A stretch of 64,000 nt of DNA, taken from Fibrobacterota bacterium (GTDB taxonomy: Bacteria > Fibrobacterota > Fibrobacteria > UBA11236). The position numbers and the translations under genes were made by a program. Position 1 is the first letter of the stretch; every line of letters starts with the position of its first letter. The notes under the pieces are model-generated. The model was not told the origin of the DNA. It worked only from the letters and a program-made list of their open reading frames with translations, and made no database searches. Shown in pieces: positions 1,095 to 51,944 of the stretch. Where the stretch lies: assembly GCA_019509785.1 (NCBI GenBank), contig JAEKLQ010000026.1:1-64000 (forward strand). Reading direction: 5' to 3'.

Positions 1095-2588
1095 CTACTT
1101 GCCCTTCGGCATCTGCGAAACCATCTGAAGGTTCACGTCGATGCCTTCCACCTGGAAGTGGGGGCTCACCGCCATGGTGACGCGATAGAAGCCGGGGTTG
1201 TCCGCGATTTCGGCGACTGTCACGTTGGCGGCGCTCAACGGGCGCTGCGCGGCCACCGACGGGCTCGGGTTCTTCATCTCGGTGACCAGGTTCTTCAGCC
1301 AATTGTTCAGCTCGTCCTGCAGCACCTGGGCGTTCTTGGTCGCGCCGATGTTCTCGCGTTGGATCACCTTCAGGTAATGGGCCAAGCGCGAGCTGAGGAA
1401 GATGTACGGCAGCCGGGAGTTGATCCGGCTGTTGGCGGTCACGTTGGGATCATCGTAGAGCTGGGGCTTCTGCGACGAGTTGGCCGAGAAGAAGCAAGCG
1501 TAATTACGGTTCTTGTAGAAGGAAAGCGGGATGAAGCCCTGATTGGCGAATTCGAATTCGCGGGTTTCCGGGATGAGGATCTCTGTGGGGATCTTCATCT
1601 GGTTGCCCTTGCCCACATCGTAAAGATGGATGGGTAGGTCTTCCAGCTTACCGCCCGCTTCCGGCCCGCGGATGTTCACGCACCAGCCGTTGTCGGCGAA
1701 GGCGCGGGACAGATTGGCCGCCAAGGCGAACGTCGCATTGCCCCACAGGTACTTGTCATGCTGATCGCCGGTGACCTTTTCCTTGTAAACGAACTCCTTG
1801 ACCGGGACGGTATCCGGGCCATAGGGGAGACGGAGCAGGAAGCGGGGCAGCACGAGGCCGACGTAGCGGGAGTCTTCCGATTCGCGGAAGGCCTTCCACT
1901 TCAGGTATTCGGCGCGTTCCATGTAATTGGAAAGGTCTTCGATGGCCGGCAATTCGCTCGCGTTCTTGCGATTGAAGAATTGCGCGCCGACCGAACCGAT
2001 GAACGGGCAATGCGCCGAGGCCGAAATCTTGGACACGTTCTGCAACAGGGAAACGTCCTGCGGCTTGGACGTGAACTCGTAATTGGAAACGATGGCGCCC
2101 ACGGGCTCGCCGCCGGGGGTGTCGTATTCCTGGGTATAGATATGCTTGTAGAGCCCGGTCTGGATGGTCTCGGGGGAATCCTCGAAGTCTTCCAGCAAGG
2201 CCTGCTTGGACGCGTCCAGGATTTCGATCTTGATGTTCTTGCGGAAGTCGGTCCGATCGACCAGGAACTTCAGGCCCTTCCACGCCGACTCCAGCTTCTG
2301 GTACTCGGGATGGTGCAGGATGGCGTCCAGCTGGGCGGAGATCTTTTCGTCGATGGCGGCGATCTGATGATCGAGTACGGTCTTATCGATCTTCTCGACG
2401 GTGGTGCTGCTGTCGGAAATCGCCCCGATGAATACGCGCAGAGCGGCGGTAATGCGCTTGTTGGCTTCCACTTCGGCGATGTCCGCCTCTTCCCGGAATT
2501 GGAGCAGGTCGACGGGCTTATCGGGCGCCGCCTTGATGTCCATGTATTCCAGGATCTCGTTGACTAGGCTTTTCTTATCTTCGGCCAT
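1095..2588 (-). CDS. tssC: TssC, T6SS contractile sheath large subunit
   Basis: A 497-residue protein of the TssC/ImpC/VipB (EvpB) family, the large subunit that, with TssB, builds the contractile sheath around the Hcp tube in the cytoplasm. Length matches the family. Typical stretches are the N-terminal helical region, the segment QEYDTPGGEPVGAIVSNYEF around residues 150-170, and the conserved C-terminal part with RINSRLPYIFLSSRLAHYLK. The ATG at 2588 has AGGAGAG 6 nt upstream. It is the last gene of the operon, 32 bp after tssB and 22 bp before the terminator. Confidence 0.97.
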   Translation of the reverse strand: MAEDKKSLVNEILEYMDIKAAPDKPVDLLQFREEADIAEVEANKRITAALRVFIGAISDSSTTVEKIDKTVLDHQIAAIDEKISAQLDAILHHPEYQKLESAWKGLKFLVDRTDFRKNIKIEILDASKQALLEDFEDSPETIQTGLYKHIYTQEYDTPGGEPVGAIVSNYEFTSKPQDVSLLQNVSKISASAHCPFIGSVGAQFFNRKNASELPAIEDLSNYMERAEYLKWKAFRESEDSRYVGLVLPRFLLRLPYGPDTVPVKEFVYKEKVTGDQHDKYLWGNATFALAANLSRAFADNGWCVNIRGPEAGGKLEDLPIHLYDVGKGNQMKIPTEILIPETREFEFANQGFIPLSFYKNRNYACFFSANSSQKPQLYDDPNVTANSRINSRLPYIFLSSRLAHYLKVIQRENIGATKNAQVLQDELNNWLKNLVTEMKNPSPSVAAQRPLSAANVTVAEIADNPGFYRVTMAVSPHFQVEGIDVNLQMVSQMPKGK

Positions 2589-2620
2589 GTATCTCTCCTG
2601 TTACCCGTTGTCCTGGACTT

Positions 2621-3139
2621 TTATTCCGCGGCCTTGGCGCCGTTGTCGTCCATGGGGACGATCTTGTCGAGCTCGGCCACCAGGCTGTCCATGGCGGTCT
2701 TGTCCTGCATGATGCCTTCCAGCTTCTTGCGGAATTCCTTGTTATCCATCAGGTTGGACTTCAGGTCCTTGACCAGGTTGCGGGCGGCCAGGAGCTTGGA
2801 GAGCTGCGGCACCTGCTTCACGATCTCGAGAGGGCTGAAATCCTTGATGTTCTTGAATTTCAGATCCACCTTCAGATCGCCGCCGCCGGGATTGATCTTG
2901 TTCTCGACGCTCATGTTGAGGCCGAGATCCATGGACTCCATCACCTGGTTGAAGTTGTCCTTATTGATGTTGATCTTCTCTTTATCGACGATGCGGCCCG
3001 TATCCCCCTTTTGGGAGAAGTCGCCGAGCACGAGCATCTTGAAGGGGAGCTCGACCTTTTTTTGGGCGCCTCCCTTGTCGATATCCAGTTTGATGTTGAC
3101 CCGCGCTGGGGGGATTTCGTTTTGGAAGCTGCCGGCCAT
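2621..3139 (-). CDS. tssB: TssB, T6SS contractile sheath small subunit
   Basis: A 172-residue protein of the TssB/ImpB/VipA family, the partner of TssC in the contractile sheath. The N-terminus has the family's VNIKLDIDKGGAQKKVELPF beta strand and the LVLGDFSQ motif that follows it. Usual family length is about 160-175. The start ATG at 3139 has an AGGAG ribosome site 6 nt upstream. It sits between tssA and tssC, the standard order. Confidence 0.97.
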   Translation of the reverse strand: MAGSFQNEIPPARVNIKLDIDKGGAQKKVELPFKMLVLGDFSQKGDTGRIVDKEKININKDNFNQVMESMDLGLNMSVENKINPGGGDLKVDLKFKNIKDFSPLEIVKQVPQLSKLLAARNLVKDLKSNLMDNKEFRKKLEGIMQDKTAMDSLVAELDKIVPMDDNGAKAAE

Positions 3140-3194
3140 GATCCAACTCCTGGTTTTTTGGGGCGTAGAGCGTAAACGGCTCGAAACAAGAAAC

Positions 3195-4712
3195 TTACTT
3201 GAGATCGGCGCTAATGGCTAGGACGGGGTCCAATTTAGATATTTGGGCGTGAACCTCAACGGCCTTTTCCCAGTAGATATGTTTCATCCCCTCGTCGGCG
3301 GCGGCCATCAGGGCCAGGAACACCTTCTGGGACAAATGGTAGGTAGAGACGCATAATTCGGGGTCCCATTCGGCCAGGGAATGCGCCGCGATGGACGATT
3401 TCAGGTCCTCCAGGAGCGAGCGCGCGACGTGAGGCTTGTTGCCCTTATAGAGCAATTCCGCCATTATCAACTTGCGATCGAAGTTGTTCTTTTCGCTGGA
3501 ATCATTGGCCAGGCCGGTCCGGAGCACATGCAGGGCCGCCTCCAGCTTGCCTTCGCCCAGCAGGATGGAAGCCTGTTTCTGCTCTTCGCCCACGTCGCCC
3601 TTTTTCTTGATGGGGGCCGGTCCAGCGCCGCCGCCGCCGCCCAAAAGGGAAAGCACGTCCGACTGGATCCATTCCTGGGTCATGGGGTCGGCGAAGGGGG
3701 TACCGTCTTCGAAGGACAGGTTCGGGAGGGTCGGTAGGCGCGACAGGAGCAGGGCCAGCTCGGTACGGATGGCTTTGGAGCAGGCGGAGTACTCGGGCCC
3801 CAAGCCGGCCATGGCCGTGCAGATGAACCGCTGCAGGTCGAACCAGAATCCCATCCCGTCCCCGGAAAAGGCGTCCTCGCCGCCCTTGGCCAAGTCGGCC
3901 CAGGCTTGGGCATCGAACATGCCACGATAAGCCTCCAGGACATGCGGATATGGGGCGGGGAAGTGGGTGCGCCCGCCGGTATTGGGAATCGCCTCCTGCC
4001 AGGGGGCCCATTTCAGCATGCGGATGATCCGATAGGCGAATGCATCCGTTTTGGAATTCTCCAGCAGCCAGTAGGCGCCATTCTGGATCGACATGTAGGC
4101 ATCATCCGTGGACGCGATAGGCCCTTGGGCCGGCCCTGACTGGGCCGCCGCGGCGGAGGAGTCGGCAGTCGAGGCGGTTTCGACCGGTTTGGGCTTATGC
4201 TTCTCCGCCATCTCTTTCACCAGCTTGATGAAGCCGCCGAAGGAAGGGGGATTCTCCGTGAACTTCTGATCGCAAAAGGCGAGCAGCTCGCCGAGCTTGT
4301 CGCTGGCGGTTTGCAGGGTTTCGTAAGTGGCGCCACCGTTCAGGGCGGCGAGCAGATTGACGTTGCGTTCCCCGTTCAGCCACTTGAGGGCGTTGGCCCG
4401 CGCGGTGGGGCGCTTGGGATGGATATCGTCCCAATGTTCCATGACCAGGCGGCAATAGCCCGTCACCGCTTCGCCGAAGCTGTCCAGGCCATCATTCATG
4501 GCCGTGGCCAGCGCCAGGTAGCCCAGCGCGCGCATGTCCTTGGATTTCTTGGTGAGGAAGCGTTTGGAGGCTTCCTCCATGATCGCGTAATTGTTTTCCG
4601 TGCTCTTATCGGCTTCGTTGCGCGCGGCTTCGAAGTCGGGATCGTAGCTTCCGTCCTCGCCGCAGAACGAGGCGTCGGAGATGGGGGCGAGCAGTTCGTC
4701 GAGCAGTGCCAT
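3195..4712 (-). CDS. tssA: TssA, T6SS baseplate/sheath-assembly protein
   Basis: A 505-residue protein with an ImpA_N domain in the first ~130 residues (MALLDELLAPISDASFCGED, then the acidic DPDFEAARNEAD stretch and RALGYLALATAMNDGLDSF). TssA proteins are ring-forming, prime assembly of the sheath and tube from the baseplate and may cap the growing end. The middle part is Ala/Pro/Ser-rich (about residues 175-200), with a glycine run near 368 before a helical C-terminal domain, the usual layout of long TssA proteins. It lies between tssM (87 bp gap) and tssB (55 bp gap). Confidence 0.93.
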   Translation of the reverse strand: MALLDELLAPISDASFCGEDGSYDPDFEAARNEADKSTENNYAIMEEASKRFLTKKSKDMRALGYLALATAMNDGLDSFGEAVTGYCRLVMEHWDDIHPKRPTARANALKWLNGERNVNLLAALNGGATYETLQTASDKLGELLAFCDQKFTENPPSFGGFIKLVKEMAEKHKPKPVETASTADSSAAAAQSGPAQGPIASTDDAYMSIQNGAYWLLENSKTDAFAYRIIRMLKWAPWQEAIPNTGGRTHFPAPYPHVLEAYRGMFDAQAWADLAKGGEDAFSGDGMGFWFDLQRFICTAMAGLGPEYSACSKAIRTELALLLSRLPTLPNLSFEDGTPFADPMTQEWIQSDVLSLLGGGGGAGPAPIKKKGDVGEEQKQASILLGEGKLEAALHVLRTGLANDSSEKNNFDRKLIMAELLYKGNKPHVARSLLEDLKSSIAAHSLAEWDPELCVSTYHLSQKVFLALMAAADEGMKHIYWEKAVEVHAQISKLDPVLAISADLK

Positions 4713-4799
4713 GTGGCTTGGGCCTCTCGGTTAGGAATCGGAATGAAAAATGCAAAATGCGGGACGAGAACGCGGATGCGCGCGAAGATCGCGACCGCG

Positions 4800-7700
4800 T
4801 CATTCCATGCTCACCCTGCCATCCCCCCCGATCAGGCTCGGCGCCAGATCGAATTTGTAGAAGTCCGGCGTAGTGAACGGATTCTCGCGATCCGGGATAT
4901 TGCCTTCCATGGTCACGTCCACGTCGTACTTGCCGGCGACGTTGAAGCGCCATTTGGCTGTGAGCCCGCCCGGACGGGGAGCGAAGGCGCGCGCGCCGTC
5001 GAGTAAGCGGTTGAAACCCCAGGCCCCGTCCACCCGGCGGCCCTCCGAGCCCCCGTTCACGTTGTCGACCAGGATCTCGGCGCCCTTGTAACTGTTCTCG
5101 TTAGGCCAACGGAAGGTGAAACGCGCCTGCCCTTCGCCGGGTTTCACGGCGATCTTATCCTCGCCCAGCCGGAAGGTGACCTTGGCGGTATTGCGCGATT
5201 CGGCCAGGGTGACGTTCAGGTTGTAAATGCGCAGGCCCGCGTCCGAATAAAGCCGGCGCTGGACCGAGTAGGCTTTGCTGATGCCTTCCAGCGCTCCCGG
5301 CGCGAAGCCTATGCGGATCCCGTTCCAATGCCTGGGGCTGATGGTTTCCTCTTCCACCTTCACGAAGGGCGCGAGCTTGCCGGAATAGAATTGGGTGAAG
5401 GGGCCCTTGTCCGGGGCGAAGAAGGCTTTCAGGTCCTCGAGATTGGCTTCGTTGCCGCCGGATTTGACCAGGGGATAGCGCCCCTTGAGGTTGGCTTCGT
5501 AGAAGGAAACCACCTTGGACTTGTAGGCGGCTTCGAGTTGGCTGCCCGCGGCATTGGCCAGATAGCCGGCCACGTCGCGCACCGGATTTTCCAAAAGGGG
5601 CGTCAGCCAGGTTTGGCTTTCGTAGCGCGCGGTGATGCCCTTGGCTGCGTTCCAACAGTTGTTCATGGGGCTTTCGGCCTTGCCGGCGAAGAGGGCCTGG
5701 GCCGCGTCCATCACCTCGCCGCCGTTGTCCCCGGCCTGCGCGAGCTTACCCAACACTTCCGAAAGCCCGCGGGCCGCCGTGAAATAGTCTTGCAGCAATC
5801 CGCCGCCCGAGGGGCCCCCGTTCAGCTCTTCCACGAACTTGAATTGCTCCTTCAGCCGTCGCTTGTCCGCATCGCGCGCTTCCAAAGCCATGGACAGGAG
5901 TTGGCCGGCCTTCCCCAGTTTCTTTTCCACCGCCCCGGTGCCGGCCGGGGGAGGGGCAAGAAGATTGGTCTCTACCAGCAAGCGGGAAAGCACGGCGGGC
6001 AGTCCCTGGGTGGCGGAAGCGAATCCGCTCAACTTGCCGGAAGCCTGGCCCGGTTCGCCGGGCAGGCGTACCGACAGGCTTTGCAAGAGGTGCATCCACT
6101 CGGCGGCGTACTCCTGGTAATACTTGTCCACCAAGGCGCGGTACAACTGCTTCTGATCCTGCATCTCGGGCGGCAAGGCGGCCACCGCGCCTTCGCCCAG
6201 CACCCAATCGCGTTGATGGGGCTCGGCCGCTCCCTGGGCCAAGCGGTCCATGGCGTCATCGTCGAAGGCGGCCTTGGTGTAGAACGCGCGCACCTTGGCA
6301 TTGCTCTTCAGGGCCGCATCGGGCGGAACGCCCATCTCGGTCAATCCCAGATCGCGCGCGGGATCCTCGGATGCGACGATGGATGCGTAGAGCCCTTCGA
6401 TGCTGGGGGTGCCCAACAAGCTTTGCCGCGCGGTTTGCACCAGGGGCGCGTCGCTCTTGGCCAAAGGCGGGGTTTGCTGGCGCATGAACCTGTCGGCATA
6501 TTGCGCGGCATGATCTTCCAGGCCCGACTCCAGGTTGCCGGGAAGGTTTTCCGCGCCGAATTTGTTGGCGGCTTCCTGGGCCCACAGCGGGGACAACAGC
6601 TCGGACAATTCCGCGGCTTTAATCTCCTTCAAATGGGATTGGCCTTCGGTGGTGAGCAAAAGATAGAGCTTCAGGTTTTCCCGCAGATGCGCATGCTGGG
6701 AGGGGTTATCGTATTTCGATCCCATTTCCAGGGAAGCTCCCAGCGCCCGCAGCCCGTCGAGGGCGATCATCCGGTTGAGTTCGATGGTATGCGCCGTGGA
6801 CGCGAGTTCGAGGGCCTCCGAAGAATGGCGGAAGCCCGGCGGCAAATGCCCGCCGCCATCGGCCCTTATCTCCTTAATCTTCGCCAGCAGGGCCCCGAGC
6901 ACATCGTACTCGGCCCGGAAATCCGTTTGCGACCGCCATTGCAACCGTCCGGCCTCGGAGACGCTTTTGGCGACGCTGGACAGGTAGGCGCGGCTGCCGA
7001 AGAATCCGATCAATCCATAAACGAGGATGGCCAGGCCCGCGACGGCCATGATGGAAGAAGCGATGAGGGATTGCCGCGAAAGGCTTCCCAGGCGGTAGCC
7101 GGGGATCTGCGCCAGCGACTTGTCGTTCTTGAGCACCCCGCCGAAGAGGAGGAAGGTGAACATGGACCGGGGCCGGCTCAAGGAATCGGGCGACTTGGAG
7201 GCGGCGGGCCCGCGCAGCTTGGCCTTATGATCCAGGAAATGGGCGGCTTCGCCGCCGGCATCCGCGAAGGGATCGTTGGCTTTCGCGAAATCGGAGGCTT
7301 GGCTGGGCATCACGCTGGTGAGGAAGAAGCCGCGGAAGGCGGCGCGTTCGCGCCGCATGGTGTCCTTGAACAACTGTTCGACGAAGACGGCGATGCGCTC
7401 CTGGGCCGCGCCGAACTCGTTGGGGAAAAGGAAGATTTGCTTGCGCCGCGAAGGATCGGGCGCCTGCGAAAGGCGCTGGGGCGTGCGCGCCTGCAACGAT
7501 TCCCAGATCTTCTTGTATTCGCGCTCGAAGCGTTGGCGCGCCGGCGCCAGGTTGCCGCGCAAGGCGAAGGTGGCGCCGAAAACCTGGTGGTTCTCGGGCT
7601 CCTGCATGTTCTCGAAATACTCCCGGAAGCCCGGGATGATGTCGGTATGCGTGAAAACCAGGTAGATGGGGAGTTCCAGGCGTAGCGTGCCCATGGCCAA

Positions 7701-8399
7701 GGCGATCCGCTCGCGGTAACGCGCGGCGAGTTCCCCGACCCCGGGCCCGCCGTCCAGCAATTCCCGCAGGCTCACCACCAATAGCAAGCCGTCGAGCGCG
7801 GTGCGTTTGCCTTCCTTGGAAAGCTGCGCCAGCCAATATTGGAATTCGTCGTCGCCCTCTTCGCCGGTGGCGTAGCGATTCGGGGCCTCCAGGAAAATGC
7901 CCTGGTTGCTGAACCACCACTGCGAGAAATGCTGGGTCTGCTTGGCGAGTTCCGCCGACGAAGGGAAGCGCCGCGGGAAATGGATGCCCGCATGCTCCAG
8001 CAGGCTGGTCTTACCCGAGCCCGGGCCGCCGAGCACGAGATAGAACCGGAAGACGTCGAGCGGATCCTGGCCCATCTTGGCCTTGCCCTTACCCGATTGC
8101 TTCAGGATGTCGAGGGCGGAACGGGTCTCGGCCTTGAGCGGTTCCAGCCAGGTTTTGGCCGCGGCCTCGGCTTCGAAGGGATTTGCGGTCGTCTGCTCTT
8201 GCCCCTTGAGTGCTTTCTTAAGCCGTAGGATGGCGAGGATCAGGGCCGTCAGCCCCGCCAGCAGCAACGGGAGCGCCGTCCACATCAGGCGCAGGCCGAT
8301 GCCCTTGGCCCCGAAGACCGGCAGCAGGAAGAACAGGATCAAGGCGATCAGGAATCCCGCGACCAGGATCCAGAAGGCGGCGGACTTGAAGATCTTCAT
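4800..8399 (-). CDS. tssM: TssM (IcmF), T6SS inner-membrane protein
   Basis: A 1199-residue IcmF-family protein that anchors the T6SS trans-envelope complex with TssL and, where present, TssJ. Two transmembrane helices near residues 8-28 and 38-58 are followed by a cytoplasmic domain with an intact Walker A motif GGPGSGKTS (124-132); a third helix near 435-457 leads to the long periplasmic part ending in the conserved C-terminal beta domain. Family length is usually 1100-1300. The start overlaps the tssL stop by 4 bp (ATGA), so the two are translationally coupled. No tssJ lipoprotein gene is seen nearby. Confidence 0.96.
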   Translation of the reverse strand: MKIFKSAAFWILVAGFLIALILFFLLPVFGAKGIGLRLMWTALPLLLAGLTALILAILRLKKALKGQEQTTANPFEAEAAAKTWLEPLKAETRSALDILKQSGKGKAKMGQDPLDVFRFYLVLGGPGSGKTSLLEHAGIHFPRRFPSSAELAKQTQHFSQWWFSNQGIFLEAPNRYATGEEGDDEFQYWLAQLSKEGKRTALDGLLLVVSLRELLDGGPGVGELAARYRERIALAMGTLRLELPIYLVFTHTDIIPGFREYFENMQEPENHQVFGATFALRGNLAPARQRFEREYKKIWESLQARTPQRLSQAPDPSRRKQIFLFPNEFGAAQERIAVFVEQLFKDTMRRERAAFRGFFLTSVMPSQASDFAKANDPFADAGGEAAHFLDHKAKLRGPAASKSPDSLSRPRSMFTFLLFGGVLKNDKSLAQIPGYRLGSLSRQSLIASSIMAVAGLAILVYGLIGFFGSRAYLSSVAKSVSEAGRLQWRSQTDFRAEYDVLGALLAKIKEIRADGGGHLPPGFRHSSEALELASTAHTIELNRMIALDGLRALGASLEMGSKYDNPSQHAHLRENLKLYLLLTTEGQSHLKEIKAAELSELLSPLWAQEAANKFGAENLPGNLESGLEDHAAQYADRFMRQQTPPLAKSDAPLVQTARQSLLGTPSIEGLYASIVASEDPARDLGLTEMGVPPDAALKSNAKVRAFYTKAAFDDDAMDRLAQGAAEPHQRDWVLGEGAVAALPPEMQDQKQLYRALVDKYYQEYAAEWMHLLQSLSVRLPGEPGQASGKLSGFASATQGLPAVLSRLLVETNLLAPPPAGTGAVEKKLGKAGQLLSMALEARDADKRRLKEQFKFVEELNGGPSGGGLLQDYFTAARGLSEVLGKLAQAGDNGGEVMDAAQALFAGKAESPMNNCWNAAKGITARYESQTWLTPLLENPVRDVAGYLANAAGSQLEAAYKSKVVSFYEANLKGRYPLVKSGGNEANLEDLKAFFAPDKGPFTQFYSGKLAPFVKVEEETISPRHWNGIRIGFAPGALEGISKAYSVQRRLYSDAGLRIYNLNVTLAESRNTAKVTFRLGEDKIAVKPGEGQARFTFRWPNENSYKGAEILVDNVNGGSEGRRVDGAWGFNRLLDGARAFAPRPGGLTAKWRFNVAGKYDVDVTMEGNIPDRENPFTTPDFYKFDLAPSLIGGDGRVSME

Positions 8400-9253
8400 G
8401 GCGCGGGGACCTTGCTTTGCAGCCGCTCAATCGTCTCGCGGGCCGGATCGAGCGCCCCGTCGCTGGCGAACATGAGCACTCCGTACAACAACGCGGATAC
8501 GACCAGGAAGATCGAAGTGGCGATGACCAGTCCCCGCCCGCTCCGTTCTTGTCCCTTCACACCGGGATGGACGTAGGCCGAAGGGGAAACGGCCTTGGGC
8601 GGTTCGCCCTTGATGCCTTCGATCCGCTTCAGCAGGTTGCGGACCACGTTGGGCAAGACCTCCGGTCCCGAAAGGCGGTAACGTCCCTGGAACCCCAGGG
8701 CCAGGCAGAGGTAGTACACCTCGATGATCTCGAGGTTGCGCTGCATATCGGGCAGCAAGGCTTCCAGGCGCTTGAAGAAATTCTCGCCCGCCAGGCTGTC
8801 GTTGAAATAGGTCACCGCCAGAGGATCGGCGATCCAGGTCTCCCGGCAATTATTCTCGGTATTGACGATGGTTTCGTCGATGAAGGCGGCCAAGGCGTAG
8901 CGGGCCTGCTCCGCCGCTTCGGGGGCTTTACGGTAGGTCAGGGCGGAGCGTTCGAAATCCTTGAAGTACGAGTTCAGCAAACGCCGCATCTGCTCGGGCT
9001 GGCCCAGGTTGGCCGTCTCCCGGATCTTGACGCCGAGAAGGAGAACGTCGGTCGCCAGGATGGCCAGGCTCGGGGCTTCCTTGTCCCCGCCCGCCGACCC
9101 GAACAAGGTTTGGCCCGCGCTGGCCCCGCCTTGGCCGAACAAGGTTTGCACGGCGCCATCGGCCCAATCCATGCCGCCCCCCTGGCCGTACGCCGTGCGC
9201 ATGGCGGGCTGGAGGGGTTGTTGCAGGACGCGTTTCTGTCCGGGTTGCATCAT
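8396..9253 (-). CDS. tssL: TssL (DotU/IcmH), T6SS inner-membrane protein
   Basis: A 285-residue DotU-family protein. The N-terminal ~55 residues are Gln/Gly-rich and disordered, carrying two copies of TLFG (residues 37-40 and 49-52). The DotU domain follows (about 60-230, with the conserved ALAAFIDETIVNT and EVYYLCLALGFQGRY stretches), then one C-terminal transmembrane helix (about 242-264) and a short periplasmic tail with no peptidoglycan-binding domain. TssL pairs with TssM in the membrane complex. In Agrobacterium, phosphorylation of a threonine in the TssL N-terminus controls secretion through an FHA protein; whether the TLFG threonines play that role here is inference. Confidence 0.96.
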   Translation of the reverse strand: MMQPGQKRVLQQPLQPAMRTAYGQGGGMDWADGAVQTLFGQGGASAGQTLFGSAGGDKEAPSLAILATDVLLLGVKIRETANLGQPEQMRRLLNSYFKDFERSALTYRKAPEAAEQARYALAAFIDETIVNTENNCRETWIADPLAVTYFNDSLAGENFFKRLEALLPDMQRNLEIIEVYYLCLALGFQGRYRLSGPEVLPNVVRNLLKRIEGIKGEPPKAVSPSAYVHPGVKGQERSGRGLVIATSIFLVVSALLYGVLMFASDGALDPARETIERLQSKVPAP

Positions 9254-9334
9254 TGATTCCCTGCGGTCGATGAGGATTCAGGCGACGCTGAAGCTGCGCG
9301 GGCCGCTCCGCTTAGGCCGTAACCCGGTCGTGTT

Positions 9335-10675
9335 TCATTCCGTCGTCGCTATCAATTCCAGCTTGGTCGAAGGCAGATCCGAAGGCATATGGATCGCCAG
9401 CGCTTTCGTCTGCATGACTTGATCCCAGAGTTCCCCGCCTTGCTGCAAGCGGAAATACTTGAATCCGGCCTTGGCGGGAATCGAGGACGGGGCCGCGGCT
9501 TCCGGCACCAGCGGGACGCCGGGAAGGGCGGCATTGACCATCATTTCCAAACGGCCCACGGGCGCGAGCTTGGCCTTACGCTGAACGGTGGTGATGATTT
9601 CCACCTCCGAGGCCTGGGCCGATACTCCCAGGTAGAATTGCTTGAGGGTGTTGAAGTCCGCATCGCGCATGTTCGCGGAATATTGGATCGGGCTCGTCTT
9701 CGTGAGCGGGAAAACGCGGTAGCCCGTAGGCACGGTCACGCCCAACAGGGTTTCGAGTAATTGGAAAAGCGGGCGGAAACAGGCCTGCAAATCGCCATGC
9801 ACGTATTTCGGCATGTCCGTCGCCTTGGCATCCTGGCCGAAGCTCACCAAGCTCCCCGCGAAGGAAATCAGGCGGCGGAACAAGGCTTCGGGATGGGCGA
9901 AGGGATGGTTATGGAAATGGATGATCTCGGGCAGGGAACCGTTGATGGCAGCCAGCAGGAGGTAATTGGTGAGCGCCTCGGCGTTGAATTGGGCGATGCC
10001 CGTGCTCTTTTGCGCGCGCTGCCCCATCAGGTAATTGCTCTTCTGGATACAGCTTTCCATCAGCCTCTTCAGCTGGCCGGTAAGCCCATGGGCCGCCGCG
10101 ATGCGCACCGCGGTGGGAAAGAACAGATCGCTGGGCAGAACGCGTCCTTGCGCATCCCGCACCAGTTCGGCGATCTTCAAGGTCTGGAAACCGGTGGCCG
10201 ATTCCCCGTCGAAAAGGAGACGCAGGTTCAGCCGTCCGAAAACGAGTTCCTTCGGATTTCCCCCGGAATTGCCGTCCGGGATTTCCCGGGGTTGCCCTTG
10301 GAAGCGGGCGGGCTTTCCCTCGGCGCCGAAGGCGAGATTGGCGTTGCCGGCAGCGTAAGCGGGCACGGCCAGATGTACGCCCAGGTTTTCCCGGGAGGCG
10401 GGGAAGAAGGATTCGAATTGCCGCTGATCGGGCAAGGGATCGGTACGAGGGGCGGAAAAGTGGGTGCCGTCGGGGAAGATGCCGGAACAATCCTTCACCG
10501 AAAGGAATCCGTTGTCGAGGGAATCGCGTTCGATCTCGAGGGACGCCAGTCCGTAATAGAATGGCGAAAGGAATTGCAAGCGGGCGTGGATGGACCCATC
10601 CGCGAGGAGATCGGCTTGTTGCAAGTGTTGCGGGGAGAGGACCATGCCTTCCAGCCAGATGACCTTATCGCTCAT
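9335..10675 (-). CDS. tssK: TssK, T6SS baseplate adaptor
   Basis: A 446-residue TssK/ImpJ/VasE protein, the trimeric adaptor linking the baseplate wedges to the TssL-TssM membrane complex. It has the diagnostic start VIWLEGMVLSPQHLQQ and length typical of the family (about 445). The ATG at 10675 has AAGGA 7 nt upstream. It is the first gene of the minus-strand T6SS operon, 81 bp before tssL, and is divergent from the PEGA protein gene; the shared 117-bp promoter region holds two palindromes. Confidence 0.97.
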   Translation of the reverse strand: MSDKVIWLEGMVLSPQHLQQADLLADGSIHARLQFLSPFYYGLASLEIERDSLDNGFLSVKDCSGIFPDGTHFSAPRTDPLPDQRQFESFFPASRENLGVHLAVPAYAAGNANLAFGAEGKPARFQGQPREIPDGNSGGNPKELVFGRLNLRLLFDGESATGFQTLKIAELVRDAQGRVLPSDLFFPTAVRIAAAHGLTGQLKRLMESCIQKSNYLMGQRAQKSTGIAQFNAEALTNYLLLAAINGSLPEIIHFHNHPFAHPEALFRRLISFAGSLVSFGQDAKATDMPKYVHGDLQACFRPLFQLLETLLGVTVPTGYRVFPLTKTSPIQYSANMRDADFNTLKQFYLGVSAQASEVEIITTVQRKAKLAPVGRLEMMVNAALPGVPLVPEAAAPSSIPAKAGFKYFRLQQGGELWDQVMQTKALAIHMPSDLPSTKLELIATTE

Positions 10676-12175: not shown

Positions 12176-13009
12176 TTAAAGGGCCTTGGTCTCTTCCTTC
12201 ACTTCTTCATCTTTCACGTCGAAGCGGGGCTTCTTCTTGAGCTGATTGCGACGGCCATGCTGGATGTCCGAATCCTCGCGGGTGAAGAGCGCGTCTTCAG
12301 CCGACGGATTGGGGGCCAACGCATCGACATGGGCTTCCTTCGCCGCCGGGATCTCGTGATCCACGGTGGAAGGCAAGGGGCGACGGGGGGCCAAAACGGA
12401 AGGGGCCGGAGCGGCATTCACGACCGGGGCCGATTCGCCCTGGGCCGAAGAATTCGGAACGCTCGGCGCTGCCGAAGCTTCGCGTTCGCCACCGAAGCCT
12501 TCGCGGCCCCGTTCGCGTCCACCTTCGCGGGAAGGCGCGCCTTCACGGCCATTGAAACGATCGCCGCGATCATGACGTTCCGGCCGTCCGCCGCGCTCGC
12601 GGTCGCGCCCGCCGAAACGGTCGCCGCGGTCGCCGCGATCATTGCGGGGTCCGCGATCCGTGCGCTCGCCGCCTTCGCGACGGGCTTCGCCTTCGGGGCG
12701 ATCGCCGCGCGGTGCGCGATCGCGGGGGTTGATTTCACGGGGTTCGCGGCTGCGGTCGCCTTCCATCGCGGGGCGGGGACCACGGTTTTGAGGAGCGCCG
12801 TTTACCGCATTGCGGGGAGGGACGCTGGCCCGGGCTTCTTCGGCTTCGTCAACCTTGACGGGCTTGAGCTTGAGTTGCGGAGACATCTTCTTGACGACGG
12901 GTTGTTCAAGGAGGTAGGTAAGGGTGCGGACTTTAGAGAGGACGTAGATGCAGAGACCGATGCTGACGGCTGATAGGCCTGCCAGGGTCAAAAACTGTAC
13001 AGTTTCCAT
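12176..13009 (-). CDS. Single-pass membrane protein with long Arg/Gly/Asp-rich tail
   Basis: 277 residues. An N-terminal transmembrane helix (about 3-26, LTLAGLSAVSIGLCIYVLSK) is followed by a short basic segment and then about 120 residues dominated by Arg, Gly, Asp and Glu (about 60-180) with repeated RGDR, GGRDRERGG and EGGRERGRE units. The tail beyond is Ala/Pro-rich and ends charged. The composition resembles RGG-type RNA-binding disordered regions, so an RNA-related role at the membrane is possible but unproven. The minus strand shows only a poor ribosome site before the ATG. The coding sense is supported by a clear terminator downstream and a TATAAT upstream. Confidence 0.75.
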   Translation of the reverse strand: METVQFLTLAGLSAVSIGLCIYVLSKVRTLTYLLEQPVVKKMSPQLKLKPVKVDEAEEARASVPPRNAVNGAPQNRGPRPAMEGDRSREPREINPRDRAPRGDRPEGEARREGGERTDRGPRNDRGDRGDRFGGRDRERGGRPERHDRGDRFNGREGAPSREGGRERGREGFGGEREASAAPSVPNSSAQGESAPVVNAAPAPSVLAPRRPLPSTVDHEIPAAKEAHVDALAPNPSAEDALFTREDSDIQHGRRNQLKKKPRFDVKDEEVKEETKAL

Positions 13010-48206: not shown

Positions 48207-50402
48207 CTACAGCTTCGATCTCAACTTCAACGCGAAACCGTTCCTGGGATTGATCGCCAGAATCTTGTCGACCGCGTCCTTGGCTTGGGCCTTCATCCCC
48301 ATGGCCTGGAAGGTCACCGCCAATCCTCCCAAGGCGGACACCTTTTGCTTTTCGGAGACGCCTTCGGCGATCAGGGCTTTTCCGTACAGCAGGTTCGCCT
48401 CGGCGGTTCTGCCCAAGTCGTTCAGGTCGTCCGCGGCTTTGAGCCGCTCCCCGGCGGAAGCAGGCCAATCCCGGGCTTGCACCATGCTCATCAGGGAAGC
48501 CTCCCTCTCCGGAGTAACATGAGAGTTACCCTGGTAGGAAGACTTGGGCGGCTTAGGCGCGGACGGCGCGCTGGCCTCCGGAGCGGAGCCGGGACGAGCG
48601 GGCTCCACCGGCATGGGTGGCTCGGAATAACCCGTAGCCGGTCCGGTATTCGCCCCGGCCGGCGCGGCCTGGTTCTTTCCGGACTCCCCTCCCTCCGGAT
48701 AAGGGGGCCGGTCCGCGGAGGGTTGCGGGGGGACCGCGGTCGGTTCGGGTTGGCTGGAAGCGCCCGGGCCCGTCGCCGTCGTCGGGCGGGCGTTGGCCGC
48801 GGGTCGAGGGGGAAGGGCGGGGACGGATTCATCGGATACCGCCACCGGGGTTCCCGAGGGCTTGGCTTTTTCGGCGGCATTGCCGCGGAGGAAAATGAAC
48901 AAGGCCGCCAGGCCAGCGAGGATGGCCACGCCGCCCGCGATGCCGAACAGGAGCCTGAGCTTGGCTTTGGCCGCCGCGGCGCTCCCGTCCGGATTGTAGA
49001 TCCCGGTGCGGTTGTCGCCCGCGCCCTTGAAGCCATAGGTGGTGAAGCCGCCCGAACCGATCGAGCCGGCGGCTTCCATGGGATCCTTCTCCAGGGAAGA
49101 CAGGCTTACGGACATGGGTTTGTTCTGCGGCGGGGGCTCGTTCCGGAACGGGGATTTGGAACCGGAACGGGGTGTTACGGGTTTACCGAATAGGGTCCCC
49201 GGTTGCTCCAGATCGGCGAGGCCGCCGGGGGGCGCGAAAGGCGCGCTTTCGCGGCGCGGGGGTTCGGATCTCGCTACGGGCTGGCCGGAGGGTACGGCCG
49301 GGGCTCCGAATAAGGTGTCGCCGCCCGGCTTGCGCGGATCCGGGAAGAATCCGTCGGCGTTTTTACCAGATCCCGGGCTCTCGGCGCCGAATGGTTGTTG
49401 TCCGCCGGCCGACGGCATCGCCGGTGCGGTTTCGGAAGGAAAAAAATCGAAAAAGGAATCGCTATCGGCGGGCTTGGCGGGCGTGCCGAACAAGGTGGGC
49501 TCCTTGGCGGCGACGGGTTCGGCAGGCATCGGAGGGGCCACCGGGGCGGAAGCGGCGGCCGGAGCGGGGCGATCCCCCATGCGATCCTGTAGCCGTTGCA
49601 TGACTGCTTGTAGTTCCCACATCGCATCGGCGAAAGCCCCCGCGTCCTGGAAGCGCTCTTCGGGCTTGGGATGCAAGGCTTTACCCAGGAATAAGGCCAG
49701 ATCGCGGTCGATACCGCGCGCATCGTTGAGGGTTTGGGCGGGATTGGAGGAGGGGTGTTCGCCTTTGACCAGGCGATACAGGAGGCCCGCGATGGCGAAA
49801 AGATCGCTGCTGGGATAGCTGAGGAAGCCCGCTCCTCGGCCCGCCATCTCGGGGGCCCGATAGCCCCGGTACTCGGGGCGAAGGGGAAGGGGATCGGGGG
49901 TCATTTCAGTGTTACCCAAGGCGCGCGGGTCGGGATCGCAAAGCTTGGCGACGACCGGGCCCGCGATCACGTTCCCGGGATGGATGTTCAAGTGGCGCGT
50001 ACGCTCATGCAAGGCCCCCAGACCTTGGGAGACTTGCCACAGCAGCTCCAGTCCGCGGGCGAAATGCCCGGGCTCGCCCCGGTGCTTACGGGCCCAATCC
50101 TCGAAGGATTCGCCCTCGACGAAGGATCTGGCCACGAAAACCTGTCCCATTTCCTCCTGGACGTCGAGGCAGGCGGCCAGGTTGTCATGGCCTATCTCGG
50201 TCATGATCACGGCCTTGAGGAAGAAGTCCGGGGCCGCCATCAGCTTGGCGGAGACCTCGGGACGGTAGATCTTGACCGCCAGCCGGCCGGCGTTGCTATT
50301 GGCCAGGTAGGTGACGGAGGCCGGGCCTTCGCCGGCCATGCCATCGACCACGTACTTGTTCGCGATGACCTCGCCGTGGGAATATTGGGGATGTGCGGGC
50401 AT
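48207..50402 (-). CDS. Membrane pseudokinase with TLFG repeats and TPR-like C-terminus
   Basis: 731 residues. Residues 12-270 have a Ser/Thr-kinase fold: glycine loop GEGPASVTY, Lys44 in LAVKIYR, and APE at 183-185. The catalytic HRD is HLN (137-139), the following Lys is His141, and DFG is DPD (156-158), so catalysis is unlikely. A disordered Pro-rich linker holds three TLFG motifs (303-306, 363-366, 403-406). One transmembrane helix (about 483-506) leads to a second disordered stretch and a TPR-like domain (about 640-731), probably periplasmic. Convergent with the two unknown genes. Confidence 0.88.
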   Translation of the reverse strand: MPAHPQYSHGEVIANKYVVDGMAGEGPASVTYLANSNAGRLAVKIYRPEVSAKLMAAPDFFLKAVIMTEIGHDNLAACLDVQEEMGQVFVARSFVEGESFEDWARKHRGEPGHFARGLELLWQVSQGLGALHERTRHLNIHPGNVIAGPVVAKLCDPDPRALGNTEMTPDPLPLRPEYRGYRAPEMAGRGAGFLSYPSSDLFAIAGLLYRLVKGEHPSSNPAQTLNDARGIDRDLALFLGKALHPKPEERFQDAGAFADAMWELQAVMQRLQDRMGDRPAPAAASAPVAPPMPAEPVAAKEPTLFGTPAKPADSDSFFDFFPSETAPAMPSAGGQQPFGAESPGSGKNADGFFPDPRKPGGDTLFGAPAVPSGQPVARSEPPRRESAPFAPPGGLADLEQPGTLFGKPVTPRSGSKSPFRNEPPPQNKPMSVSLSSLEKDPMEAAGSIGSGGFTTYGFKGAGDNRTGIYNPDGSAAAAKAKLRLLFGIAGGVAILAGLAALFIFLRGNAAEKAKPSGTPVAVSDESVPALPPRPAANARPTTATGPGASSQPEPTAVPPQPSADRPPYPEGGESGKNQAAPAGANTGPATGYSEPPMPVEPARPGSAPEASAPSAPKPPKSSYQGNSHVTPEREASLMSMVQARDWPASAGERLKAADDLNDLGRTAEANLLYGKALIAEGVSEKQKVSALGGLAVTFQAMGMKAQAKDAVDKILAINPRNGFALKLRSKL

Positions 50403-50531
50403 GGTGCAAAGTATACAATTTCGGCTTCCGGCTTCCCCGTTCGCGGCCGCGCGCGCCGAGGCGCATTGTTATATTTGGAGGGTACGAGTGGCCGCCCCGC
50501 GAGGGCCGGGGGGCCGAATCCCAAGGTGCGA

Positions 50532-51944
50532 ATGCCGCCGATTTCCACAGCCGATAGGTTGCGTAGCTATGCTTTCCGGCATGCGTTCATCCGTACGGCC
50601 CTGTGCGCATTAATTCTGGCGGGGGCCGCCCACGCGCGCCACGAGAAGGAGTTGAGCGAGGACTCCCTGCAAGCCCTCGTTACGCGCGAGCCCGACAATC
50701 CCGTGCATTGGATGAAGCTCGGTACCTTGGCCGCGCGCGGCAACCAAATCGATTTGGCCAAGGGTTATTTCGACGAAGCCATCAAGCTTTCGGGCAACCA
50801 GGGCAAGACCATCCTGGAAGTCGGGGACGTATGGCTTTCCCAGGGCCGCGTCAAGGCCAGCCTGCCTTACTTGATGCCCAACCTGGGGCATCTCGATCCC
50901 GCCCGGCTCGATCAGTTGCAGAACGGCCTGGATAAGGAAAGGCTGTACTCCGCGCAATTGCTGGTCTTGCGCAATCTGGGTTCACGCACGCAGTCTTTCC
51001 AACCGGTGAATCGGCACTTGGCCATGCTGGCCTTTTACCTCGGCGATTACCCGCTTTGCCAGTCCACCTTGTCCCGCTTCGCCGATCAGCTGGATCTGGA
51101 AGCCGCCCGCAACCTGCTGCTGGTCGCCTTCTTCATGGGCGGCACTCCCGATCCCAAGGTCGTCGCCACCTTGCGCAAACGCTTTCCGGAAGTGGAAATC
51201 GGATATCTGGCCGCCCTGAACTCGGCCCAGCAAGCCAAATGGGGCGAAGTGCGTGAGTTCCTCAAGCACGAAGCGAATTCGCCTTCCTATCGCGATTATT
51301 TCCAGCTACTGCGCGCGATGGAAGCGGCCGCGGACGATCGCGCCGATGAAGCCGTGGAAGCCTACCAGAAGTCCCTGGAACTGGCCACCTGGGATCGCCT
51401 CAAGGTGGTCATCAACGCGGAGATGTACCGCTTGTATTCCACCACCGGCAACAAGTTCAAGGCGGATCAGACCTGGGATCAGCTCAAGGAGGACTACCAG
51501 GAGGCCGATCCGGAACTGCAGGAATTCATGGCCCGGCAATTAGGCGCGCGCGGATACGAGAAGCAGGCCAAATATTTTTACCGGGTCGCCCTGCGCCGGC
51601 GGCCGGGATCGGCGGCGGCCCTGGCGGCCTTATGGGAAGACTTGATGGGCAACGAGGATTACCAGACCATTTCCGACAATCTGAAAGCGATGCTAGACAG
51701 GGATCCGCTTTCCTGCGAAGGCAATTCCCTGGCCATGGATTTCCAGATGCGCCAGAAAAACGATAAGGATCTGCTTCCCTATGGCCGGAACGCGACGGTT
51801 TACTGTTATGACGCGCTGGATCCTTACCTGGTGCTGGGGAACGCCTTGGTCAATCTGAGCCGGCCCGACGAGGCCCGCAGCTACTTCTCGACCTACATCC
51901 GCAAGGGCGGCGACGTGAACAAGGTCCCCATAAGCCTGCGCTAG
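50532..51944 (+). CDS. Exported TPR-repeat protein
   Basis: 470 residues from the ATG at 50532 (AAGG 5 nt upstream). Signal peptide FIRTALCALILAGAAHA, then at least nine TPR-like helical pairs, such as EPDNPVHWMKLGTLAARGNQIDLAKGYF and LVLGNALVNLSRPDEARSYF. Probably a periplasmic scaffold. Divergent from the pseudokinase gene with 129 bp between them; both carry TPR-type periplasmic parts, so shared partners are possible. Confidence 0.85.
   Translation: MPPISTADRLRSYAFRHAFIRTALCALILAGAAHARHEKELSEDSLQALVTREPDNPVHWMKLGTLAARGNQIDLAKGYFDEAIKLSGNQGKTILEVGDVWLSQGRVKASLPYLMPNLGHLDPARLDQLQNGLDKERLYSAQLLVLRNLGSRTQSFQPVNRHLAMLAFYLGDYPLCQSTLSRFADQLDLEAARNLLLVAFFMGGTPDPKVVATLRKRFPEVEIGYLAALNSAQQAKWGEVREFLKHEANSPSYRDYFQLLRAMEAAADDRADEAVEAYQKSLELATWDRLKVVINAEMYRLYSTTGNKFKADQTWDQLKEDYQEADPELQEFMARQLGARGYEKQAKYFYRVALRRRPGSAAALAALWEDLMGNEDYQTISDNLKAMLDRDPLSCEGNSLAMDFQMRQKNDKDLLPYGRNATVYCYDALDPYLVLGNALVNLSRPDEARSYFSTYIRKGGDVNKVPISLR

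Follow-up and report, generated by a model that had tools for sequence, protein, structure and literature searches.

A conserved T-[LMV]-F-G motif in TssL and a membrane pseudokinase of an uncultured Fibrobacterota genus

Why should TssL, a membrane component of the type VI secretion system (T6SS), and a kinase-like membrane protein encoded some 39 kb away carry the same tetrapeptide, TLFG, in segments that otherwise differ? The question arises in the window analyzed here, the first 64 kb of contig C26 in a 5.4 Mb genome of Fibrobacterota (G000) that belongs to an uncultured genus, and we addressed it by comparing this genome with metagenome-assembled genomes of five congeners and of one relative that shares their order but not their family (G010). 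The original prediction, made from the window alone, held that the tetrapeptide is a short linear motif read by one partner, perhaps an FHA domain binding phosphothreonine.

Two proteins and their TLFG copies

The window starts inside a T6SS cluster and contains tssK, tssL, tssM, tssA, tssB and tssC (Table 1); in the congener G003, the gene order goes on with genes of about the size expected for Hcp and TssE, followed by tssF and by genes for sugar transporters; tssF was assigned by Pfam and its neighbors from size, order and sequence. The product of tssL contains a DotU domain, is flanked by tssK and tssM, and matches the NCBIfam model IV_VI_DotU with 153 bits. Adjoining the T6SS genes we also observed a 277-residue protein (12176-13009) without a Pfam match, which has a probable membrane helix and a tail rich in Arg, Gly, Asp and Glu and apparently has a homologue at the same place in G002.

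The second protein consists of a kinase-like domain, a 210-residue disordered linker rich in Pro, Gly and Ala, a membrane helix, a second Pro-rich stretch and a conserved C-terminal domain. It had been called a pseudokinase, and the alignment of its orthologues agrees with that name: alongside a recognizable kinase fold, HRD has become HLN, with N, D, S or M at the position of the catalytic-loop Asp among orthologues, and DFG has become DPD or DWD. Because the catalytic-loop Asp and DFG are lost while Lys44, Asn144 and Asp156 are retained, the protein is best called a pseudokinase, a presumably catalytically inactive member of the kinase superfamily. No secondary structure was predicted for the linker (pLDDT of about 35 in a weak model), and the Pro-rich stretch gave a weak match to GltJ at an E-value of 2e-4, far below the cut-off. 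A 736-codon open frame (49734-51944) runs antisense to the start of the pseudokinase gene; it is likely an artefact of GC-rich sequence and can mislead gene callers.

Translation and a six-frame scan placed the TLFG copies, exactly to the base, where the original prediction had put them, with two in the TssL N-terminus and three in the pseudokinase linker (49185-49496). Both genes are present in each of the six congeneric genomes, and in three of these they lie on the same contig with 35-40 kb between them.

Table 1. Positions in the window of the T6SS genes, the pseudokinase gene and the copies of the motif
Feature	Position	Strand	Details	Evidence
T6SS genes tssK-tssL-tssM-tssA-tssB-tssC	1095..10675	minus		Pfam scan
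tssL (DotU family)	8399..9253	minus	285 aa; ~60-residue N-terminal extension; single C-terminal membrane helix	Pfam PF09850, E 3.8e-47
TssL weaker copy, TAYG	9185..9196	minus	residues 20-23; RTA[FY]GQG in 6/6 species	alignment
TssL TLFG site 1	9134-9145	minus	residues 37-40 (T37); QT[LM]FG in 6/6 species	translation and six-frame scan, alignment
TssL TLFG site 2	9098-9109	minus	residues 49-52 (T49); GQTLFG in 6/6 species	translation and six-frame scan, alignment
Membrane pseudokinase	48207..50402	minus	731 aa	Pfam PF00069, E 1.7e-9; alignment of 7 orthologues
Kinase-like domain of the pseudokinase	49617..50345	minus	Lys44, Asn144 and Asp156 kept, catalytic-loop Asp not	alignment
Pseudokinase TLFG site 1	49485-49496	minus	residues 303-306 (T303); KEPTLFG in 4/6 species, PTFMG in G001, deleted in G004	alignment
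Conserved linker island DSFFDFFP (SFF[DN]FFP-like), next to site 1	49437..49460	minus		orthologues L098-L102
Pseudokinase TLFG site 2	49305-49316	minus	residues 363-366 (T363); GDTLFG[AV]P in 6/6 species	alignment
Pseudokinase TLFG site 3	49185-49196	minus	residues 403-406 (T403); GT[LMV]FG in 6/6 species	alignment
Pseudokinase weaker juxtamembrane copy, TTYG	49032..49043	minus	residues 454-457; FT-x-[FY]-GF(KG) in 6/6 species, TMFGFKG in G010	alignment

Conservation of the motif

Orthologue evidence comes from one genus, in which each of the five congeners encodes a single TssL, with 72-81% identity, and a single pseudokinase, with 57-69% identity over the cytosolic part. Across the six species, counting the window genome, the motif relaxes to T-[LMV]-F-G and is present in both proteins, each of which also carries one further, weaker copy of the form T-x-[FY]-G; loss of TLFG from orthologues, which had been named as an outcome that would count against the prediction, is not what we found. 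Over all sites, 34 of 35 pairwise comparisons showed the threonine unchanged, the remaining one being a gap, and it was never replaced by serine, as a reader of phosphothreonine would require.

The two proteins differ in how sharply the motif stands out. Compared with the window genome, the motif columns of the pseudokinase linker are 82% identical and the remainder 44%, and conservation scores reach 1.0 at site 2 and 0.9 at site 3 against a linker mean of 0.39; the motif codons differ synonymously between species. What is expected of a short linear motif, namely a conserved island within a diverging disordered segment that recurs in unrelated proteins, is therefore seen clearly in the pseudokinase. 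The TssL N-terminus is conserved throughout (about 79% outside the motif as well), so motif conservation there is less specific and the motif has no prominence of its own. The pseudokinase also has conserved juxtamembrane blocks, VSLSSLEKDP and GAG[DE]NRTGI[YF].

Beyond the genus, we detected tssABC and the pseudokinase in G010 (L242 on C348 and L241 on C339), where the pseudokinase lacks the TLFG copies of the linker and retains the juxtamembrane TMFGFKG. TssL was not detected in this genome, whose assembly is 79% complete, so the gene may simply be missing. We considered and dropped the absence of TssL as a sign of a link to the T6SS, as TssABC are present, and on account of its incompleteness we take G010 to speak neither for nor against a connection between the T6SS and the pseudokinase.

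Rarity of the motif and the case for coincidence

The T-[F/L]-F-G DNA pattern had 95 matches in the whole 5.4 Mb genome. When translated, all other Leu-coded TLFG matches genome-wide fell in folded-looking proteins or implausible frames, and none in a Pro/Gly/Ala-rich low-complexity linker. In-frame pairs of T[LIMV]FG at most 600 bp apart occurred here and in one open reading frame of atypical base composition on contig C34, as judged by eye among the matches listed (100 of 106 for the non-Leu forms). We also drew a proteome sample of 1,245 predicted proteins from 1.5 Mb (28% of the genome), in which segments poor in hydrophobic residues served as a proxy for disorder; because the gene caller and this proxy are crude, the figures that follow are rough. 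TLFG was the sole tetrapeptide with at least two hydrophobic residues to occur at least twice in the disordered-like segments of each of two proteins, and apart from these two proteins, T[LMV]FG in low-hydrophobicity segments was seen in a single borderline case. On shuffling of the sampled segments, some such pair arose in 38 of 500 trials (7.6%), before conservation was counted, and TLFG appeared at least once in 0.14% of trials with the TssL N-terminus and in 0.3% with the pseudokinase linker.

These counts led us to reject the idea that TLFG is a common linker motif of the proteome; two proteins carry the motif, and only the one borderline case stands beside them. Chance as the sole origin likewise lost credibility once the genome had been scanned, the segments shuffled and the orthologues compared, and sharing of the motif by chance is unlikely. 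The likeness could still be coincidental in a broader sense, with the two TLFG sets acting separately with different partners, or with the TssL set simply part of a conserved N-terminus, and with no link between the T6SS and the pseudokinase. The tetrapeptide is short enough for such pairs to emerge in the shuffled sample at the frequency given above; its flanks differ, being QTLFG in TssL and PTLFG, DTLFG or GTLFG in the pseudokinase; a distance of 35-40 kb may reflect ordinary synteny; and the G010 pseudokinase keeps the juxtamembrane TMFG only. We nevertheless consider coincidence rather unlikely as an account of several copies in both proteins, kept in all six species, that relax alike (L to M or V in strong sites, F to Y in weak ones) and that have no counterpart in any other disordered segment.

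We judge T-[LMV]-F-G to be a genuine conserved linear motif common to two proteins of unrelated fold. Neither outcome that would have told against its reuse came about, since the motif is kept in orthologues of both proteins and is rare in disordered segments, where equal frequency had been named as the second such outcome; the proposed reuse of a short linear motif is supported by its presence in six of six species in both proteins, its rarity elsewhere and its position on disordered segments that are predicted to be cytosolic. None of the papers listed by a literature search names a TLFG motif.

Candidate readers and known systems

The shared motif suggests one shared partner protein for TssL and the pseudokinase, and it is most economically explained as a phosphothreonine tag in a PpkA/Fha-like circuit with a degenerate kinase-like member. 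An active Ser/Thr kinase of the genome would phosphorylate the motif threonine, an FHA-domain adaptor would then bind the phosphorylated motif in both proteins, and the pseudokinase, with 3 to 4 sites, could act as a multivalent inner-membrane scaffold that gathers the adaptor and the T6SS membrane complex. The general layout of the pseudokinase is, we assume, that of membrane PpkA, which makes a scaffold role plausible. Taken whole, the reading in which the motif is shared through one cytosolic partner, an FHA adaptor recognizing phosphothreonine, with the pseudokinase as scaffold, is tentative. Its furthest extension is distinctly doubtful, namely that a dead receptor arrayed with T-[LMV]-F-G brings in the T6SS membrane complex by way of a common phosphothreonine reader, the same tag marking receptor and machine. 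What connects the pseudokinase with the T6SS is limited to the motif, co-occurrence in the six congeneric genomes and proximity on three contigs. To our knowledge, the post-translational control of the T6SS described so far is that of Proteobacteria. Should the tag prove real and have a single reader, it would be the first clue to how the T6SS is controlled in Fibrobacterota, would give a membrane pseudokinase a role and would offer a simple peptide with which to fish out the partner.

The expectation that a phosphothreonine on TssL can be read by an FHA domain has a precedent in Agrobacterium tumefaciens, though with a peptide other than TLFG: Fha binds pThr14 in the TssL N-terminus, within DLPpTVVEI, with an affinity of about 0.5-1.6 mM (PMC3953482). 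Common to that PpkA-TssL pThr14-Fha pathway and the present case are a threonine in the TssL N-terminus, predicted to be cytosolic here, a kinase-type membrane protein and FHA domains in the genome. In contrast, the Fibrobacterota TssL has two T-[LM]-F-G sites that resemble the Agrobacterium peptide in a Thr followed by two hydrophobic residues, the kinase-like protein that bears TLFG lacks catalytic residues, no TagH-type Fha was found in the genome, and the cluster is without a kinase or FHA gene. In Acidovorax citrulli, membrane PpkA recruits and gathers T6SS parts through Fha (PMC12607579), and in both systems an inner-membrane kinase-type protein is proposed to bring Fha and T6SS components together; however, PpkA of the Acidovorax TssW-PpkA-Fha axis phosphorylates Fha, whereas the pseudokinase would depend on another kinase, and that axis includes TssW and condensates, whereas the Fibrobacterota system is known here from sequence. 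EssB/YukC (PMC9600267) is likewise a membrane pseudokinase that works with a secretion machine, but as a protein of the type VII machine itself, whereas the gene for the Fibrobacterota pseudokinase lies ~39 kb away from the T6SS genes and its T6SS role is putative.

Recognition of phosphothreonine by an FHA domain is the leading, if unproven, mechanism, and docking that needs no phosphorylation is nearly as likely. In such docking, the L-F pair would slot into a hydrophobic groove on some folded domain in the cytosol, with the threonine as a cap or hydrogen-bond donor; the groove might be offered by the pseudokinase domain itself, by a subunit of the T6SS or by a protein of polarity or scaffolding. 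In strong sites the +1 position holds only L, M or V, and the aromatic residue and the glycine vary no more than the threonine does; the linker has further conserved hydrophobic islands, SFF[DN]FFP among them, and neither tssL nor the pseudokinase gene has a dedicated FHA or kinase gene nearby. Yet hydrophobic docking has no need of a threonine that is never swapped for serine, and no reader was found for it either. We regard docking as slightly less likely than the FHA reading. AlphaFold models, built from alignments of 6 and 7 sequences, had mean pLDDT values of 38 and 47, too weak to see motif docking.

Proteins that could act in phosphothreonine reading are encoded in the window genome, which has 7 FHA matches and 19 kinase matches (18 besides the pseudokinase), active-type kinases included; FHA matches number 7-10 per genome. 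None of the 7 FHA matches of the window genome is TagH-like. A Pfam scan found the T6SS FHA C-terminal domain in none of the 7 FHA proteins, TagH scores in an NCBIfam scan of three of the 7 did not exceed 29 bits (cut-off 120), and the TagF profile had 0 matches in the 7 genomes, as it did in control genomes. The T6SS cluster contains no kinase or FHA gene, no kinase was found among the tss genes of G003 and G002, and in both of these the contig carrying tssL and the pseudokinase gene has no FHA match. Nor is the window protein an active Hanks-type PpkA tied to the T6SS, lacking the catalytic-loop Asp and the Gly of DFG.

The FHA set comprises a sigma-54 activator, a stand-alone FHA protein of ~90 residues with its GR, SxxH and NG signatures intact, a two-FHA protein, two fusions of FHA with a lytic transglycosylase, a cNMP-FHA protein and an FHA-GAF-cyclase. 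The two-FHA protein (L136:10182-10805) is conserved in the genus, and its second FHA domain appears by eye to be without the phosphopeptide-binding signature residues. The two fusions (L135:17489-19084 and L138:9548-11326) have a probable membrane helix between the FHA and lytic transglycosylase (SLT) domains, an unusual fusion that couples an enzyme of the cell wall to a domain that reads phosphothreonine.
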